A stretch of 49,323 bases of DNA, taken from positions 1 to 49,323 of IMG/VR virus record IMGVR_UViG_3300050821_004263; one strand, 5' to 3'. The position numbers were made by a program, and so were the translations under genes. The notes under the pieces were generated by a model. It had not been told where the DNA came from. It saw only the letters and a list, made by a program, of their open reading frames with translations, and did not search any database. Source of the stretch: a virus. Shown here in pieces: positions 34,235-49,323 of the stretch; position 1 is the stretch's first letter; each line of letters starts with the position of its first letter.

Positions 34235-36304
34235 TTAGCGTACCGCCGCATTTTGGGCGGAACTTGGTGGTGCTGACGATGACGGTCGCCGCGATTGCGC
34301 CGCCGACTTGGCTGAATTGCCGCCGACCTTCGATGCCTTCTTCGCTGCTGCGTCCTGAGCGAGCGCAAGTTGCTGCTGCGCTATCATGCGAGGCACCTCT
34401 GTCTTATAACCTTCGAGTTTTTGAACTTTGTGCCACCACAAAAGGTCAACGAGTCCCAGTTCTTTCAGTTTCATCCAGCGGTTCCATGTTCCAGCCGGAC
34501 TGACAGAGAGCGACGATATAGGCACGATGCCGAACTCGACCTGTCCCTGCAAATCTTGATTCGTGTATTGGCGGAACTGCACAGCAACATCAGCAGAAGG
34601 TTGGGCTACGTCGCCAGGATAATCCGGGCTCAAACGCAGCGGCCTATCGCCCTGGTCATACTGCTGAATCAGTTGAATCCGCAACTTGCCGTAGCGCTGC
34701 AATCCTGATTCAAAGTTGCGAACCTTCAAACGAATAGGCGCGCTCGACGATTCCTGTAGCTGGTCAACGGTCGCAAACGATTGGTTCGCGGTGTTCATCG
34801 TTCCCGTTACCGACTCGTTGACGCCGGAAACCTCTGCCATACCTTTCGTGATAATCTCGAACAGCGTAAAGAACTCGCCAGGCACGTTCGGCTTGTCGAG
34901 AGGTACCATTCCCTTTTCGGTATCTTCCATCGGAACAAGTTGTCCCGGCTCTCCAGTAATTGCTTGCGTGTTGACTCCCGCGCCTTTTTTTATTTTCCAA
35001 CCAGGGTTGCCGGTCTTGCGAAGAATGTCGTACACCTGCGAAGCGATTTTGTTAACCGCTGTCGCGCACGACCGCAGTTGCAGAGGTTCTCCCTGAGCGT
35101 ACACGCACCCGTCGTCGTAGTCTTTCCAAACAGCAAACGGAAAGCCATCAGTTTGATATGGATTCGGAATGTCGCGCAGCAGTACGCGGCCTCCAGCAAT
35201 AACAACCAGACGTCCGTTCGGATACTTCAAACGCCACGCCGTTTCCATCTTGGGCGTCATCTTCACTTCGCGTTGCGGAATAGTAATCGGTTGTCCGTCA
35301 ATCTCGTTAATAATAGTGCGGGTACCAACTATTTCCATGACAGGCTCACCGCCACGCATCATTGGCACCATTTCTATTTTCCCGCCTTTAACCACTGGAC
35401 GTTGATACGCTTCGAGCGAATCGTCCCGCAGCCAAAACTCGGCTACCTCTACAGTGTCTTGGTCATCGTCGAAGTAGCGCGGCTGCGATAGCGGTCCGCT
35501 CGGCATAACGATATTCCGGTCAACTTGCATCGCGGACACGATGCGTGGCGTGCGCGCGTCACCTTCGCGAACATAGTCGCGGTTCATTATGTCCTGGTCG
35601 TTACCGATGCTGTTGACTCCTCGCAATCCTTTACACAACTCCGCTTCGCGCGGGAAGTTCCGGCGAATCCACCCCATCGTCATCCGGTCAACGTGGATAA
35701 TGTATTCCGCGTCCTCGACGCCTTTTGCCGTTGGGTTGACGTAGATTTTGTACGGCGGGATAACATCGGTGCAGTGTTTGCCTCTTCCGCCGTTACCAAA
35801 CGGGTCGTAATACACTTTGAGGAAAGACGAACCGAAAATAAGTCCCCACCCAACCCATAACGACGAAGTTAGTTGCATCTGGTTCTCGTCCCAGTCGCGG
35901 TCGCTCAACTTACGCAACAGGTCGGCGGCATCCTCAGAACCGGGTATGAGCGGTTCGACCGACACGCGGGGTTTATTGTCGGTCATAATTGCGCGTATGA
36001 ACGTAATAAAGGCGCGGATTTTGTTGATGGTGATTGCAGCGCGCCACGGTGCCCGGCGCGGGTTCCACATATCACCGGAATACAGTGCCCACGCTTCGCC
36101 AAATGTTTCGTGCGGTTTACGCGCGCGCTTTGCCGCGTCAAGCGTCCGCATCGCATAGCGAACGGTGGCGCAGCGCTCGGCCTCTTGCGGTGTGAGCGCC
36201 TGCTTTTCGTTTGAACCGCGACGCTGCTCGCGCGCCTTTTCGGCGGTTCGCGAATCGGCAACCGCTTTAAGGGTGCGGCCTGCGTTGACCTCGGCTAAAG
36301 CCAA
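34235..36304 (-). CDS. Portal protein
   Basis: The 689-residue product has the long mixed fold of podovirus portals: WALYSGDMWNPRRAPWRAAI near residue 80, INKIRAFITFIRAIMTDNKP, then WVGWGLIFGSSFLKVYYDPF and a Pro-rich strand VIPPYKIYVNPTAKGVEDAE. The C-terminal part has the tail helix (GTMNTANQSFATVDQLQESS... KVRNFESGLQRYGKLRIQLI). The dodecamer forms the DNA entry vertex and docks terminase. TTG 36304 is the first usable start after the preceding stop. The last 40 residues are Ser/Ala-rich and disordered. Confidence 0.85.
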   Translation of the reverse strand: MALAEVNAGRTLKAVADSRTAEKAREQRRGSNEKQALTPQEAERCATVRYAMRTLDAAKRARKPHETFGEAWALYSGDMWNPRRAPWRAAITINKIRAFITFIRAIMTDNKPRVSVEPLIPGSEDAADLLRKLSDRDWDENQMQLTSSLWVGWGLIFGSSFLKVYYDPFGNGGRGKHCTDVIPPYKIYVNPTAKGVEDAEYIIHVDRMTMGWIRRNFPREAELCKGLRGVNSIGNDQDIMNRDYVREGDARTPRIVSAMQVDRNIVMPSGPLSQPRYFDDDQDTVEVAEFWLRDDSLEAYQRPVVKGGKIEMVPMMRGGEPVMEIVGTRTIINEIDGQPITIPQREVKMTPKMETAWRLKYPNGRLVVIAGGRVLLRDIPNPYQTDGFPFAVWKDYDDGCVYAQGEPLQLRSCATAVNKIASQVYDILRKTGNPGWKIKKGAGVNTQAITGEPGQLVPMEDTEKGMVPLDKPNVPGEFFTLFEIITKGMAEVSGVNESVTGTMNTANQSFATVDQLQESSSAPIRLKVRNFESGLQRYGKLRIQLIQQYDQGDRPLRLSPDYPGDVAQPSADVAVQFRQYTNQDLQGQVEFGIVPISSLSVSPAGTWNRWMKLKELGLVDLLWWHKVQKLEGYKTEVPRMIAQQQLALAQDAAAKKASKVGGNSAKSAAQSRRPSSSAPPSSAQNAAVR

Positions 36305-37057: not shown

Positions 37058-38920
37058 CTAATCCCATCCGCCCATCTCGTCAAACGGCTCGTCGCGGTAG
37101 CCGCTCTCGCCTTGTACCTGCGGGCCATACGCCGCGCCGTCGAACTCATCGAACGGTTCGGAAAAGGTGTTGCCGTCAATGTCGCCGCGCGGCGCGTTGA
37201 GGTCCACCACACCTACGTCCTCGTTCTCTCCAGGTTGCAACGCGGCCTCAAACCGGCTTATCGCATAGGCAATCTGGAACGACGAAACGAGGTCATCGTG
37301 GGTACCGACGCTGCCGAACGATGCGTCGTCAGCCATCGCGCCATGCTGCTTGTAGCTCGCCATTTCCAGCGCCAGCTCCTTGCTCGGAATATCCACGAGT
37401 TCCGACTCGACGGCCTTCACCATCGCCGCGACGGCAAACGGCTTTGTCTTGGCGTTGCTCTCCCACCCAACGTGTTTGCTCGCCGGGAACCCTGCGATAC
37501 CGGGTACACGGTAGTTCCAGAGCGGATAGAGTTTGCGCTCGTCGATATAGGTGCAGGTCGCCGTTCCCGGTCCCGTCCATTCCGGCGCGAGTTTCGGCGC
37601 GACCGTATCGTCCCCGACGTTGTAGCGGATGCCCCATGCCAGCGCCGCGCAAACGTCGCCAAAGTCGATGACGTTGATTCGACCGCGCCAGGTCATTATT
37701 AACTCGTCTTTTTCTAACTCGTTGACAACTAGAACGCAGATAGTGGAGTAGTCCCCGTCCTCGCTCTGCGGGTTGCCGCGACCAATATCGGCACCGATGA
37801 TAACGCGGTCGCCTGTGCGCGGCCAGCGCCACACTTTCAGGTTATCGTATGTTCTAGCGGTTGTATGCGGTGCGCGGCCTTCGCTTTGCGCCTTCCCCGG
37901 CGAGAGGAACGACGGACGCCGAACGAGGTTGTACGGCGAGTCAAAGCGATTCTTCTCTTCGCTCTCGCCCCAATATACGTCGCCAACCCATTCGGGTCTC
38001 CGCGTGTTGAGCATCACCTTCTGCAACGCCGCGCGCGAGAATACGAGCGACCCGCTGGTGAGAAAACATGTAACTAAATCCGTGGCATATTCTTGTAAGA
38101 ATTTTTCTTCGTCTTTATTGTACGAGGCGAGTTTAATTCTACGCCAATTGAGTTGCTCTAATGAAACGTCGTACTGCTTGATGAGGTCCTTTTCGTATGA
38201 GTTGAGCGACCGCTCGAAGCGGGCGCGGTTCTCCATCGAATCGAATGTCTTTGAAAAAGACAGCGGCATTTGGTGCCACGGAATAAAGACAAGCATCGAC
38301 TCGCCGTACTCCGGGTTACGCTCGCGCAACTCAGCCGACACGCATTGCTCATAGAACCATTCTCCTTTTCCGCCCATACCGTTCGGCGTTGACTCATAGT
38401 AAATTGCGGTGTTCGGGTCGTCGGGAACCGTAGCCGTCAACGCGGCGAACAGGTCGTTTGCATTGTCGTAGTGCGCGACTTCCGTTGCGTGGATATTTTG
38501 GAACGCAAACGAACGATACGCTTCGACCGATTTAGCGGAGGCAATAAATATGCGCGACGAGAGTGGGGGAGCGAACTCCAACTTGTCGCTCGGGAGATTA
38601 CCCTGGTATTTACTATGCAGTGGCGGGCGAACTTGGTACGTGTAGTCGCCGTCAGGCGTTGGAAACTTAATCGCCTTGGGCATATGCTCCCAAAAGGTTT
38701 TGCACATACCGAGGACGTTTTCCGAAGGGTTCATCTGATGGCTGACGATGAGCGAGTCGGTGCGTGGTGTTGACATCGCGTCGTCAAAGATGAGCGCCTC
38801 AACGCCGGTCGATAGTCCCGCGCGCCGCGCCTTGCAAATAATAATACGCACCGGCATCCGATGGTCGCGAAACCATTTGTGCGCCTCGTACAGCTTCATT
38901 TGCGCCTCGTTAAAGCGCAA
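37058..38920 (-). CDS. terL: Large terminase subunit (TerL), N-terminus disrupted
   Basis: The ATPase part begins with RFNEAQMKLYEAHKWFRDHR. It has a Walker A-like KARRAGLST (30-38), a likely Walker B/catalytic ATEVAHY, then the nuclease domain with GADIGRG and a late HDDLVSSFQIAYA. It packages DNA by ATP hydrolysis and cuts it at the portal. TTG 38920 is only the first near-start codon. The same frame is open to 39040 and codes for recognisable TerL N-terminal sequence (APTDWKEQIQRLQTDQLYRI...), but without ATG, GTG or TTG. An ATG at 39048, overlapping the upstream stop, would restore the whole N-terminus if one base were added at the CCC run (39033-39035). Either a frameshift mutation or a sequence error is likely. 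Confidence 0.88.
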   Translation of the reverse strand: MRFNEAQMKLYEAHKWFRDHRMPVRIIICKARRAGLSTGVEALIFDDAMSTPRTDSLIVSHQMNPSENVLGMCKTFWEHMPKAIKFPTPDGDYTYQVRPPLHSKYQGNLPSDKLEFAPPLSSRIFIASAKSVEAYRSFAFQNIHATEVAHYDNANDLFAALTATVPDDPNTAIYYESTPNGMGGKGEWFYEQCVSAELRERNPEYGESMLVFIPWHQMPLSFSKTFDSMENRARFERSLNSYEKDLIKQYDVSLEQLNWRRIKLASYNKDEEKFLQEYATDLVTCFLTSGSLVFSRAALQKVMLNTRRPEWVGDVYWGESEEKNRFDSPYNLVRRPSFLSPGKAQSEGRAPHTTARTYDNLKVWRWPRTGDRVIIGADIGRGNPQSEDGDYSTICVLVVNELEKDELIMTWRGRINVIDFGDVCAALAWGIRYNVGDDTVAPKLAPEWTGPGTATCTYIDERKLYPLWNYRVPGIAGFPASKHVGWESNAKTKPFAVAAMVKAVESELVDIPSKELALEMASYKQHGAMADDASFGSVGTHDDLVSSFQIAYAISRFEAALQPGENEDVGVVDLNAPRGDIDGNTFSEPFDEFDGAAYGPQVQGESGYRDEPFDEMGGWD

Positions 38921-42655: not shown

Positions 42656-42999
42656 TCGCCACCAGGCGTTTCCGCAGGAAGCACCTGGCTATTCCAATCC
42701 TCGTCGATGACGTAGCGCAGCGCCTGGAAAGCCATCTCAAACCGCGGCCCGAGAAGGTCCAATATCGTACCTTCGCCCGAAATACGGCGCAGGTCAAAGC
42801 CGCTTATATCGACCGGAACCTGCCACATCTTCGGCGCAAACTCATCGCACAGTATCCGCGTGTAATACGCATCCCGGTCGAATGCGCGCATAAACTGTGG
42901 CACGTCATGGCGCTGCGGAAGGTACTTGTTCCCAAGCCGAACCAGCATCTCGTGAAAACCGTAAGGGTCCATCTGCTCTGGATTTTTCACCATTTCCAC
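42652..42999 (-). CDS. Hypothetical 115-residue protein
   Basis: It starts at GTG 42999 (ATG 42993 is also possible; neither has a strong ribosome site). The product (MDPYGFHEMLVRLGNKYLPQ, then AFDRDAYYTRILCDEFAPKM) is acidic and mixed alpha/beta. No domain is recognised. The stop overlaps the next gene by ATGA. Confidence 0.6.
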   Translation of the reverse strand: MEMVKNPEQMDPYGFHEMLVRLGNKYLPQRHDVPQFMRAFDRDAYYTRILCDEFAPKMWQVPVDISGFDLRRISGEGTILDLLGPRFEMAFQALRYVIDEDWNSQVLPAETPGGE

Positions 43000-43003
43000 A
43001 ACT

Positions 43004-43093
43004 TTAAGCCCTGAAAATATACCGCCAGCTACTGACTACCGCATAGAATGCGACGCAACAGCCACTAACAAGGAGCCAATCCAAGTAACTCAT
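43004..43093 (-). CDS. Tiny membrane peptide (29 residues)
   Basis: ATG 43093 to TAA 43004-43006. The peptide MSYLDWLLVSGCCVAFYAVV plus SSWRYIFRA is one transmembrane helix with a basic end. It follows the previous stop by seven bases and lies five bases before the next start. The tight spacing and clear helix support it, but it is very short. Confidence 0.4.
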   Translation of the reverse strand: MSYLDWLLVSGCCVAFYAVVSSWRYIFRA

Positions 43094-43100
43094 TTCAGCG

Positions 43101-43340
43101 TCATTCCGTACCAGCGAGGGCTGCGCTAACTCGTTCTGCCAACGGGGCTTCACAGAGGGGGCAACGGGTCATTTTTGGCAGCCATCGTAACTCATTCTCG
43201 CAGAAAAGATATACGAACGCAAGCGGTAGTGTGCTGGCGGAGTCCGACGAGCCGCTGACGTCCGCCTCGCCTGCATGACCCGAAATACGGGGGCCCTCGT
43301 CGGCGCTGCGTATATCACCATACGCCAAACCAACCCTCAC
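43101..43340 (-). CDS. Hypothetical protein, first gene of the late arm
   Basis: I take GTG 43340, though the open frame goes to 43394. The 79-residue product has a Gly/Asp/Ser-rich start (YGDIRSADEGPRISGHAGEA), a hydrophobic stretch (TLPLAFVYLFCENELRW) and a CPLCEAPL zinc-knuckle candidate near the end. Coding is moderately convincing. Upstream lies the long gene-free control region. Confidence 0.45.
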   Translation of the reverse strand: MRVGLAYGDIRSADEGPRISGHAGEADVSGSSDSASTLPLAFVYLFCENELRWLPKMTRCPLCEAPLAERVSAALAGTE

Positions 43341-44121
43341 GCGCAATAGCGAGCACCACCCCCTCCAAGCCAGCGTGAGGAATACCACAAGCACGGCGAA
43401 GCAACCAACGTTAAACGTGAAACTTTTTTATTTTTTGAGTCGGGGTCGAACCTACAAAGAGTGAGTCCCAAGGCAGCGCCACTGAGGGGGAAAGCCTCGC
43501 GCGCCCAGCGTGAGGAACGAGGGACTGGGAGAACCTCCCCCTCCCGCTCCGGCACCGGCTCCTGACGGGCCGGGCCTCCGCTGCGATCGTGCCGCTGGTC
43601 GCGCGCACGCCGACCGAGGTGGGGTCCGGGCGGAGGTGAGTGATTCTCGCCGAGTGTGAGTGGTTTACGCTAGCGGATATTTCGTGTCGCTTCGCCCTGT
43701 CGGCTGAGGTTGGTATGCGTCCCCGTTCGTGGCGTTAACCTGCCTCACGGCCTCCCGTACCGGTGAGCCTCGCTCCGCTCGGGTCGTCCATCGCTCGCTT
43801 CGGCTCGCTTTTGGACAAAGGAATATCTAGAGGAGTAGGCGCGGTCGGCTTTTTTCGCGCGTACTCCATTGGCAGGGAGGCTTTCCTTTGCGCCGGTTGC
43901 GAGCCTAGACGCCTCCACCGTGCAGCGCCGTTGCCGCACGTTCCCCGACGATGCCGGTCCTCTCGGGGCTGCACTCGAAAGCCAGCCTTGCCTTTCACCG
44001 GTCCCCCATCGGGAGCTGCCTGCCGAATCCATTTCCCTCGCAATGAGGGGCCTCGTTCGACGGCCAGCGGATCGCAAACGTGCGGGACCGCTCGCCAGGG
44101 CGTTCGATTGCCCGAGGCTTT
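43341..44121 (+). ncRNA. Gene-free structured control region; candidate non-coding RNA
   Basis: About 780 bases hold no convincing gene on either strand. It lies exactly where early and late arms diverge. Features seen: T-rich TTTTTTATTTTTT (43426-43438), a T-loop-like GGTTCGACCCCGACTC on the minus strand, three GAGTG motifs in 43637-43661, and a large hairpin. In the hairpin GGAGTAGGCGCG (43832-43843) pairs with CGCGCGTACTCC (43856-43867) in 11 of 12 positions around a U-rich loop. A plus-strand terminator closes it at 44094-44123. I propose a plus-strand structured RNA and/or replication origin. No promoter could be assigned with confidence. Confidence 0.4.
43371..43517 (+). repeat. 12-bp direct repeats flanking a T-loop-like segment
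   Basis: CAGCGTGAGGAA occurs at 43371-43382 and 43506-43517. Between the copies lie the T-rich tract and a minus-strand segment with a tRNA T-arm look (GTAGG, TTCGACC loop, CCGAC). The matching acceptor and anticodon arms could not be found. It may be an attachment or recombination site. Confidence 0.35.
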
Positions 44122-44123
44122 TT
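44094..44123 (+). terminator. Intrinsic terminator, plus strand
   Basis: GCC-A-GGGC (44094-44101) pairs with GCCC-GA-GGC (44110-44118) around an 8-base loop, followed at once by TTTTT (44119-44123). It faces plus-strand transcription, yet no plus-strand gene precedes it, so it implies a non-coding transcript from the 43.4-44.1 kb region. It also overlaps the 3' end of the converging 44122-44445 gene. Confidence 0.6.
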
Positions 44124-44445
44124 AGATCGTGAGGCCGTTCGCCTCACAAAAAGCACGAAGCCGCGCTTCATCGCACGGCCGGATAATGGAACAATGCGCC
44201 CACACTAACCGATCGCCAACCAGGCGCAGTTCCATGCGTTTGCGGTACGGCTTCTGGAATACGTTCCGCGGTGCTCGAAAGCACGCCTGGCAGGTCGGTC
44301 GGTTCGTCGTCTTGAGTAGCGCGACAATCTTCGGGACCAAGGCGATGCGGTTCGCTGGCACTCCCTGTGGCGTCGGCGAAGGCGTTGAGAAACGGGCCCG
44401 TGCTATTCGGGCTCGGTCATCGTCGGTTAGGGGTCTTGCTTTCAT
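44122..44445 (-). CDS. Hypothetical protein with CxxC, own promoter
   Basis: ATG 44445 has AAAGGTG upstream, and the longer frame to 44724 crosses the promoter region. The 107-residue product has a helical start (KARPLTDDDRARIARARFST), a NRPTCQACFRAPRNVFQKPY segment with one Cys pair, and RLVWAHCSIIRPC. A zinc site of four Cys or Cys/His is plausible. A good promoter lies 28 bases upstream of the ATG. Being the single minus-strand gene facing the early promoter, it may be a regulator (inference). Confidence 0.6.
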   Translation of the reverse strand: MKARPLTDDDRARIARARFSTPSPTPQGVPANRIALVPKIVALLKTTNRPTCQACFRAPRNVFQKPYRKRMELRLVGDRLVWAHCSIIRPCDEARLRAFCEANGLTI

Positions 44446-44472
44446 GGGAGCACCTTTCAGAACGTGTCCGGG

Positions 44473-44502
44473 AGCATACCGTACCGGGGCCGTAAACGTC
44501 AA
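44473..44502 (-). promoter_or_regulatory. Sigma70-like promoter for the 44122-44445 gene
   Basis: On the minus strand, TTGACG (44502-44497), an 18-base spacer and TATGCT (44478-44473) form a good -35/-10 pair, 28 bases before the start codon. A second TTGACA lies further upstream (at about 44535) and two copies of GGTACGGT (near 44480 and 44565) may be operator half-sites. The rest of 44503-44756 holds a stem AGAGCC/GGCTCT and no gene I accept. Confidence 0.6.
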
Positions 44503-44732
44503 GAGCCCCCGGCTGGCACCGAAGGCTCTCGTGTCAAACGTTCTGATGGCTCGACCAATGCGGACCGTACCATAACATGAGAAGCCCGTCAACTGTAGGA
44601 GCCGTTTTGTCGCGGCGGGATGACCTAGGTATCGCGGGGCCATAACACAGAGGCCTTGTAGGACCAGGAAACGTCGCCGAAAACACACGAACGGGGCGAA
44701 CACCAGATTAAACCGCCTATTCACGCACGTTT

Positions 44733-44772
44733 CATACTATACCGTCGCGGCCTCGTATGTTATACTTTTGTT
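44733..44772 (+). promoter_or_regulatory. Leaderless early promoter
   Basis: An extended -10 TGTTATACT (44758-44766) ends six bases before ATG 44773, so transcription should begin at or within a base or two of the start codon. No Shine-Dalgarno exists. CATAC (44733-44737) and GTATG (44755-44759) form an inverted repeat across the promoter, a candidate operator. This is the likely main early promoter. Confidence 0.6.
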
Positions 44773-45063
44773 ATGCCAGAGGTACGCAAACCGCTCTCCG
44801 TTGCCTTCGCCGCGTCAGAACGCGGGATGCTGGAAGCGGCTGCTGCGATCGAAGGGAAGCGCCTGACCGAGTTTATCCGGGCCGCGTCGGTGCAAGCCGC
44901 GCGTCGGATATGCGGACGGCACGCAACCCCGAAACCACTGGCACGACCTGAACCGACCGAGATTATCGTGGCGACCGCTGCTGAAGCGCCAATGAGCGCC
45001 GAGGTTGCGGGCCCGCTGCCAGAAGGTTGGTCGGCAGGTCTACTGGAAACCACCGAACACTAG
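44773..45063 (+). CDS. Ribbon-helix-helix regulator (DUF1778-like N-terminus)
   Basis: The first 50 of 96 residues match the ribbon-helix-helix pattern of TacA/DUF1778-type DNA-binding proteins: a strand (KPLSVAFAASERGMLEAAAA) and helices with TEFIRAASVQAARR. The C-terminal half is Pro/Ala-rich and disordered. As the first gene behind a leaderless promoter with an inverted repeat, it is probably an autoregulator of the early operon. No toxin partner of the TacT type follows, so it is not a visible toxin-antitoxin pair. Confidence 0.65.
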   Translation: MPEVRKPLSVAFAASERGMLEAAAAIEGKRLTEFIRAASVQAARRICGRHATPKPLARPEPTEIIVATAAEAPMSAEVAGPLPEGWSAGLLETTEH

Positions 45064-48627: not shown

Positions 48628-49323
48628 TACAGAAGAGAGAGCCGCCTTAGCGGTTCGTGAAACGACCGCAAACCTCGCTAGTCAAACGCCAATCGGTGAG
48701 CACAAGCCGCTCAAATACTCTCTTTCTGAGCTTAAGCAAATCGGCGAGATTATGTTCGCAAGCGGAATGTTCCGCGATCTCAAGTCTATTCCGCAAGCGA
48801 TGGTAAAGCTACTCGCTGGAGCGGAACTCGGGTACGGTCCATTTCAATCGCTGCGTGCGTTCCATGTCATTGAAGGGAAGCCCGTCGAAACGAGCGGCGA
48901 GATAACCGCGCGCATCAAACGTAGCGGCAAGTACCGCCTCGAATCGTACTTCATCGACGCCGCCGGCAAGCACCTCGACCCAATCAAAACGAAGGCGAGC
49001 GAAACGAACGGATGCGTCGTGCAGATATTCGAACGCCTCGACGGGGGGTGGCATGAACTCGAACCGACCGTCTTTACGAAAGAGGACGCCGCGACTGCGG
49101 GTCTTCTCAGTAAAGACGTTTGGAAGAAGTACCTGCGCGATATGTTGTTCGCGCGTGCGCTAACCGCCGCTGCCCGTCGCCATTGCGCTGATATTTTCGG
49201 TGGCCCGATCTACGGCCCGGAAGAGTTAGGCGCAGAGGTAACAGTCGACAGCAGCGGCGAGCCAACAATCGTGGGGCAAGCCCAAGTTACGCTACCGCCA
49301 GCGGTAGAACCGTCGCAACATCG
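48608..49323 (+). CDS. RecT-like single-strand annealing protein, N-terminal part (runs off contig end)
   Basis: ATG 48608 lies behind GGAGG (48594-48598) and overlaps the exonuclease gene by 20 bases. The 238 codons present include a segment (KQIGEIMFASGMFRDLKSIP, KLLAGAELGYGPFQSLRAFH) and a SGEITARIKRSGKYRL stretch, followed by KKYLRDMLFARALTAAARRH and IFGGPIYGPEELGAEV. This set is the signature of the widespread phage RecT-like recombinase. It anneals complementary DNA in recombination and end repair. The frame is open at the right end and continues at base 1, giving a 333-residue protein. Confidence 0.85.
   Translation, partial: MQHGTVDTEERAALAVRETTANLASQTPIGEHKPLKYSLSELKQIGEIMFASGMFRDLKSIPQAMVKLLAGAELGYGPFQSLRAFHVIEGKPVETSGEITARIKRSGKYRLESYFIDAAGKHLDPIKTKASETNGCVVQIFERLDGGWHELEPTVFTKEDAATAGLLSKDVWKKYLRDMLFARALTAAARRHCADIFGGPIYGPEELGAEVTVDSSGEPTIVGQAQVTLPPAVEPSQH
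49313..49323 (+). repeat. 11-bp terminal overlap with the window start
   Basis: TCGCAACATCG at 49313-49323 is identical to bases 1-11. Merging them keeps the recombinase frame open (1002 bases, 334 codons). This supports a circular or terminally redundant molecule cut arbitrarily inside a gene. Confidence 0.8.

Follow-up and report, generated by a model that had tools for sequence, protein, structure and literature searches.

What is carried by the gene-free interval that lies where the late and early arms of an uncultured virus of bacteria diverge? The sequence analysed (hereafter the window) is an IMG/VR virus record of 49,323 bases. Its minus strand carries the late genes, with a P22-like portal protein at 34235-36304 and the terminase large subunit at 37058-38920, and its plus strand carries the early genes, from 44773 on. 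A DNA-level search of deposited phages retrieved none similar to the window, and the best matches of its terminase are ~25% identical. The 11-mer TCGCAACATCG is common to positions 1-11 and 49313-49323, a hint that the genome may be circular or circularly permuted. The product of the first early gene (44773-45063) is a TacA1-like protein of antitoxin type (Pfam E 1.9e-5), and the gene is preceded by an AT-rich stretch with inverted symmetry, a possible operator.

The first-pass annotation of this DNA had seen no credible gene at 43341-44121 and had proposed a large structured RNA or an origin there. The absence of a credible ORF was borne out on both strands: a codon-usage gene caller made no calls in 42993-44773, and two small minus-strand ORFs recognised by eye (43101-43340 and 44122-44445) bracket the interval exactly. 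ARAGORN detected no tRNA in the whole window. The single-sequence folding energy of the whole interval is only weakly unusual (z -2.08 on the plus strand, +0.04 on the minus strand), and the case for an RNA is made by comparison rather than by single-sequence folding. Comparison with relatives shows the conservation, the minus-strand orientation and the non-coding nature of the element, as well as the predicted structure of its 5' domain. The features of the locus, all on the minus strand, are as follows.

44473..44502, minus strand: putative sigma-70-like promoter, TTGACG-18-TATGCT, ahead of both the ORF and the RNA; a consensus match only
44122..44445, minus strand: small basic ORF (107 aa, pI 11.0); the last base of its stop codon immediately precedes the RNA
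43395..44121, minus strand: predicted large structured non-coding RNA, ~720 nt, with an uncertain 3' end that may reach ~43330
43815..44121, minus strand: 5' (A) domain, for which RNAalifold with L181 gives 73 pairs, 16 of them with compensatory double changes
44098..44113, minus strand: first hairpin of the RNA, GGGCAAUCGAACGCCC, which in L181 reads UGGCGAUCGAAAGCCA, with a compensatory change from a G-C to a U-A pair
43832..43867, minus strand: 12-position hairpin with the conserved loop GAAAAAAGCCGACC, whose stem changes are compensated in L181
43689..43703, minus strand: conserved motif 1, CCGACAGGGCGAAGC, 5' arm of a proposed long-range helix
43424..43436, minus strand: A-rich tract AAAAAATAAAAAA, immediately preceding motif 2
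43395..43411, minus strand: conserved motif 2, containing GUUGGUUGCUUCGCC, 3' arm of the proposed long-range helix
42652..42999, minus strand: downstream gene, conserved near the RNA, 59% identical to L078:5246-5572

The assignment of the RNA is based on homology with contigs L181 and L201, on motifs kept in L078, L006 and L013, and on covariation in the minus-strand orientation. The terminase relatives in IMG/VR yielded contigs with the same gene order; several of these show a gene-poor gap in the corresponding position, where the late operon and the divergence point are separated. The motif GGCGAAGCAACCAAC (plus orientation of the window), seen in two relatives, was scanned exhaustively across IMG/VR, and the other matches inspected were unrelated sequence. 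Genomic context and profile search together identified L006, L013, L078, L181 and L201 as homologues. The profile searches connected window positions 43808-44120 with L181/L201 (E 4e-27 to 2e-29), L181 with L078 (E 5e-98), L078 with L013 (E 1e-34) and L013 with L006 (E 1e-79). L181, L201 and L078 belong to a lineage with a terminase only barely similar to the window's (E ~4e-4); RNA homologues occur in these two phage lineages, in each of which they precede the late operon at an equivalent position. L181 has its 5' domain in common with the window and its 3' domain in common with L078, a case of domain swapping, and the terminases of L181 and L078 are practically identical. Since L201 nearly duplicates L181, the 5' domain is represented by two independent sequences. 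A pattern scan of genome contigs gave 34 matches, none of which was backed as homologous by profile search, and a DNA search of deposited phages and plasmids with the window, L013, L078 and L181 as queries gave no meaningful match.

Some observations on the relatives concern other parts of their genomes. The terminase large subunit of L141, L140 and L008 matches as two halves ~1 kb apart, both of which lie in L141 inside one 1009-aa open frame; this looks like an intein. ARAGORN found no tRNA in the relatives except a doubtful tRNA-Pyl (CUA anticodon) near the contig start of L007 (919-992), possibly a false positive.

Another gene-poor, RNA-like element occupies the same syntenic slot in L247 (6253-6860), a relative of L181 by its terminase (88%), and in L248 (5340-6050). 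The two elements are homologous over their first 190 nt (64.6%, E 9.5e-12), no homology of the element to the window was detectable, and in L247 a promoter-like site directly precedes it. RNAalifold on the 5' part of the L247/L248 pair gave z -3.0 in the sense orientation, with a covariation count (3 double changes vs 5.5) that is not decisive.

Evidence for structure comes from the alignment of the window with L181 over the 5' domain. The minus-strand consensus fold has an energy of -100.8 kcal/mol, compared with -60.4 +/- 6.0 in column-shuffled alignments, corresponding to z -6.7 (-7.8 with local shuffling), and 0 of 300 shuffles reached its energy. The 16 double-changed pairs compare with 6.7 +/- 2.2 in the shuffles. 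On the plus strand, the same alignment gave -71.3 kcal/mol and z ~ -2.2. As controls, 14 coding alignments of the window with L004, equal in length and comparable in divergence, were folded on both strands (n=28) and gave z -0.06 +/- 0.90, the lowest value being -1.66. About 11 pairs involve G.U on the minus strand, where the plus strand would give A.C mismatches. Since both covariation and G.U pairs favour the minus strand, we place the RNA there, whereas the first-pass annotation had proposed a plus-strand transcript ending at 44123. Gaps of 1-2 nt occur throughout the alignment, indicating that a protein frame is not kept between the window and L181, and a protein-coding gene was ruled out on this ground. 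The expectation of a large structured RNA thus found its support in homologues with compensatory changes.

The consensus structure of the 5' domain contains the hairpin GGGCaaucgaacGCCC and a branched element with a closing stem GGCAG/CUGCC. Three arms leave this element: the first is a 9-bp helix with a longer stem on top, the second is the CGUGCGGC hairpin, where four double changes follow one another, and the third is a GGAGGC/GCCUCC helix with four double changes. The hairpin at 43832-43867, singled out in the first-pass annotation, is real, with GGAGTAGGCGCG and CGCGCGTACTCC pairing at 11 of 12 positions, and in L181 compensatory stem changes surround the same loop. The annotation had also called an intrinsic plus-strand terminator at 44094-44123. 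A terminator-like site does exist at 44098-44113, but its T-run is absent in L181, and the 2-kb region holds 5 terminator-like sites against 2.3 +/- 1.5 expected; judged from the alignment, the supposed terminator is hairpin 1 of the minus-strand RNA. Single-sequence folding of the minus strand was no better than shuffles, and the window's own minus-strand MFE fold contains the core of the alignment-derived 5' domain. Projecting single-sequence folds between the window and L181 favoured the minus strand only slightly, because the high identity retains most pairs anyway. A model built from the core at 43850-44022 (R1) matched only the window, L181 and L201; run on the other relatives, it did not find the 5'-domain core.

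The 3' half is not alignable end to end among the window, L181/L078 and L006/L013, and the window shares only motifs with them. The 17-mer GTTGGTTGCTTCGCCGT is common to the window, L181, L078, L006 and L013, and in each comparison 0 of 500 shuffles reached a length of 17. Upstream of it, CCGAYAGGGCGAAGC (motif 1) is kept in the window, L181, L078 and L006. Within these motifs, GGCGAAGC and GCUUCGCC are perfect complements in the same four sequences, separated by about 286-318 nt, and overall the spacing of the complementary motifs is about 250-320 nt; in L013 and L002 the first motif reads GGCGGAGC and still pairs via G.U, which holds for the minus-strand RNA only. The same helix was proposed independently by RNAalifold on L181/L078. 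A long-range helix GGCGAAGC/GCUUCGCC closing the 3' domain is a supported prediction, on evidence thinner than that for the 5' domain. In close relatives, the pairwise test of the 3' domain gave a weak signal for L078/L181 (minus strand, z -2.4) and a strand-ambiguous one for L006/L013 (plus -2.05, minus -0.65). A-runs like that before motif 2 of the window occur at the corresponding place in L181, L006, L013 and L002. A U-tract follows the RNA in L181, L013, L006, L078 and L002, where folding gave no consistently strong hairpin, and the window has neither a U-tract after the RNA nor a terminator. In L078 (7936-8045), motif 2 is present twice, 84 bases apart, and the outer copy resembles the window's own 3' end.

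The surroundings of the RNA are also shared. The start of the RNA falls no more than ~10 nt from the stop codon of a small ORF, mostly a basic one, in six phages: in the window, L078, L013, L006 and L002 the gene-free element directly follows the stop of a basic ORF (pI 10-11.5), and in L181 the homology begins ~10 nt past a small ORF with a pI of 7-9.4, depending on the start chosen. Among these small upstream proteins, homology was recognisable only between L013 and L078, and a homology search with the upstream ORF of the window gave no match. The counterpart of the downstream gene, L078:5246-5572, sits in the late arm of a phage whose terminase is barely similar to that of the window. A long inverted repeat, GAGAGCC...GGGCTCT, lies at 44493-44540, just before the promoter-like site, and L013, L006 and L078 have similar hairpins at the corresponding place.

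In order to relate the RNA to described families, Rfam was searched with cmscan, using the gathering threshold for the whole window and a permissive limit (E up to 10) for the element together with two homologues. Neither setting gave a match in the window or the relatives, the covariance models of GOLLD, ROOL and OLE included, in line with the first-pass annotation, which could connect the region to no named family. A search of open-licence papers found no description of this RNA. Expression of GOLLD is raised during lysis, and its tRNA-gene neighbourhood is frequent, not universal. GOLLD is phage-encoded, with many members >800 nt, extensive secondary structure and an unsolved function, and, like ROOL, it is found in phage and prophage genomes, frequently close to tRNA islands, and forms nanocages (Nature 2025, PMC12286853). 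The RNA of the window resembles GOLLD in being phage-encoded, large, modular and extensively structured by prediction, but it differs in having no covariance-model match and no tRNA genes nearby and in its position at the head of the late operon. With ROOL, which forms a homo-oligomeric cage, it shares the character of a large ornate RNA of phages and prophages, and it differs in lying outside any tRNA island. OLE is a large structured RNA of ~600 nt that works as an RNP (PMC9723947). The likeness to OLE lies in the large structured RNA, with a basic ORF directly upstream in the window whose product might bind it; OLE differs in coming from Gram-positive extremophilic or anaerobic bacteria. 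The RNA thus appears to share kind, size and modularity with GOLLD and ROOL, while no sequence-based test places it in either family. In our interpretation it represents a new family of large non-coding RNA in phages, GOLLD/ROOL-like in size and modularity and apparently unrelated in sequence.

We consider it rather probable that the locus is a gene for a modular minus-strand late-arm non-coding RNA of ~720-860 nt, with a branched 5' domain and a helix-closed 3' domain, which acts in trans. Its transcription would begin at the putative promoter near 44480, heading the late arm, with the RNA lying behind the short basic ORF, and would end at a presumed 3' terminus. The product would fold into the branched 5' domain and the 3' domain closed by the long-range helix and, as proposed for GOLLD and ROOL, could act as a stable RNA at the late stage, possibly as a scaffold or as an RNP whose presumed partner is the basic protein of the preceding ORF. 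The main rival holds that the same RNA is a long structured cis-acting leader of the late transcript that regulates the late operon, either by making RNA polymerase pause or terminate until a phage antiterminator acts, as at lambda pR' / 6S RNA / tR', or by protecting or timing the late mRNA. The position of the RNA, immediately ahead of the late genes and on their strand, the U-tracts of the relatives and the basic protein encoded just before it, which might act on it, all agree with such a leader. The lambda arrangement resembles the locus in having a transcript where the late operon starts, followed in relatives by a possible terminator; of a late promoter, a short leader and an intrinsic terminator before the late genes, the window shows the promoter-like site 44502-44473, while the U-tracts of the relatives come with no consistently strong hairpin. 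Lambda 6S RNA, of ~194 nt, does not have the architecture seen here, and the size and multi-domain architecture of the RNA are far beyond known antitermination leaders; the window itself lacks a terminator, and L181 and L078 differ by the exchange of an entire 5' domain. Because of the size, the architecture and this exchange despite practically identical terminases, we favour the trans-acting RNA and regard the leader as somewhat unlikely.

The remaining explanations fare worse against the same data. A DNA element, such as a replication origin or a packaging or recombination site with its inverted repeats acting as DNA hairpins, would suit the divergence of the two arms and the many GCGAAGC-type mini-hairpins; the strand asymmetry of covariation and G.U pairs, together with the lack of iterons and of a sharp skew switch at the site, makes it improbable and leaves the origin suggested earlier without support. 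A plus-strand non-coding transcript ending at 44094-44123 could draw on the single-sequence fold and the terminator-like site, but the alignment z of ~ -2 against ~ -7 on the minus strand and the unconserved T-run render it very improbable. Hardly more credible is untranslated or decayed intergenic DNA without function, its similarity due to recent common ancestry only: the homologues are few and the 3' half diverges rapidly, yet the compensatory changes go well beyond shuffles and controls, and the 17-mer and its complementary motif are kept in otherwise unalignable elements.

Beyond the trans-acting RNA itself, it is possible, as a more tentative proposal, that an undescribed family of large ornate RNAs swaps whole domains and forms a defined late-stage particle, alone or with the basic protein, from a dedicated slot. 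Since L247 and L248 have another RNA-like element at this position, the slot itself would be a site reserved for large RNAs. Few large structured RNAs of phages have been described, and their roles are still unsolved. The RNA described here would add a family that has no detectable similarity to GOLLD, ROOL or OLE and occupies a fixed position where the late arm begins, in most cases preceded by a small ORF; with its strand, its borders, testable helices and a candidate partner protein, it may offer a genetic handle on the role of such RNAs.
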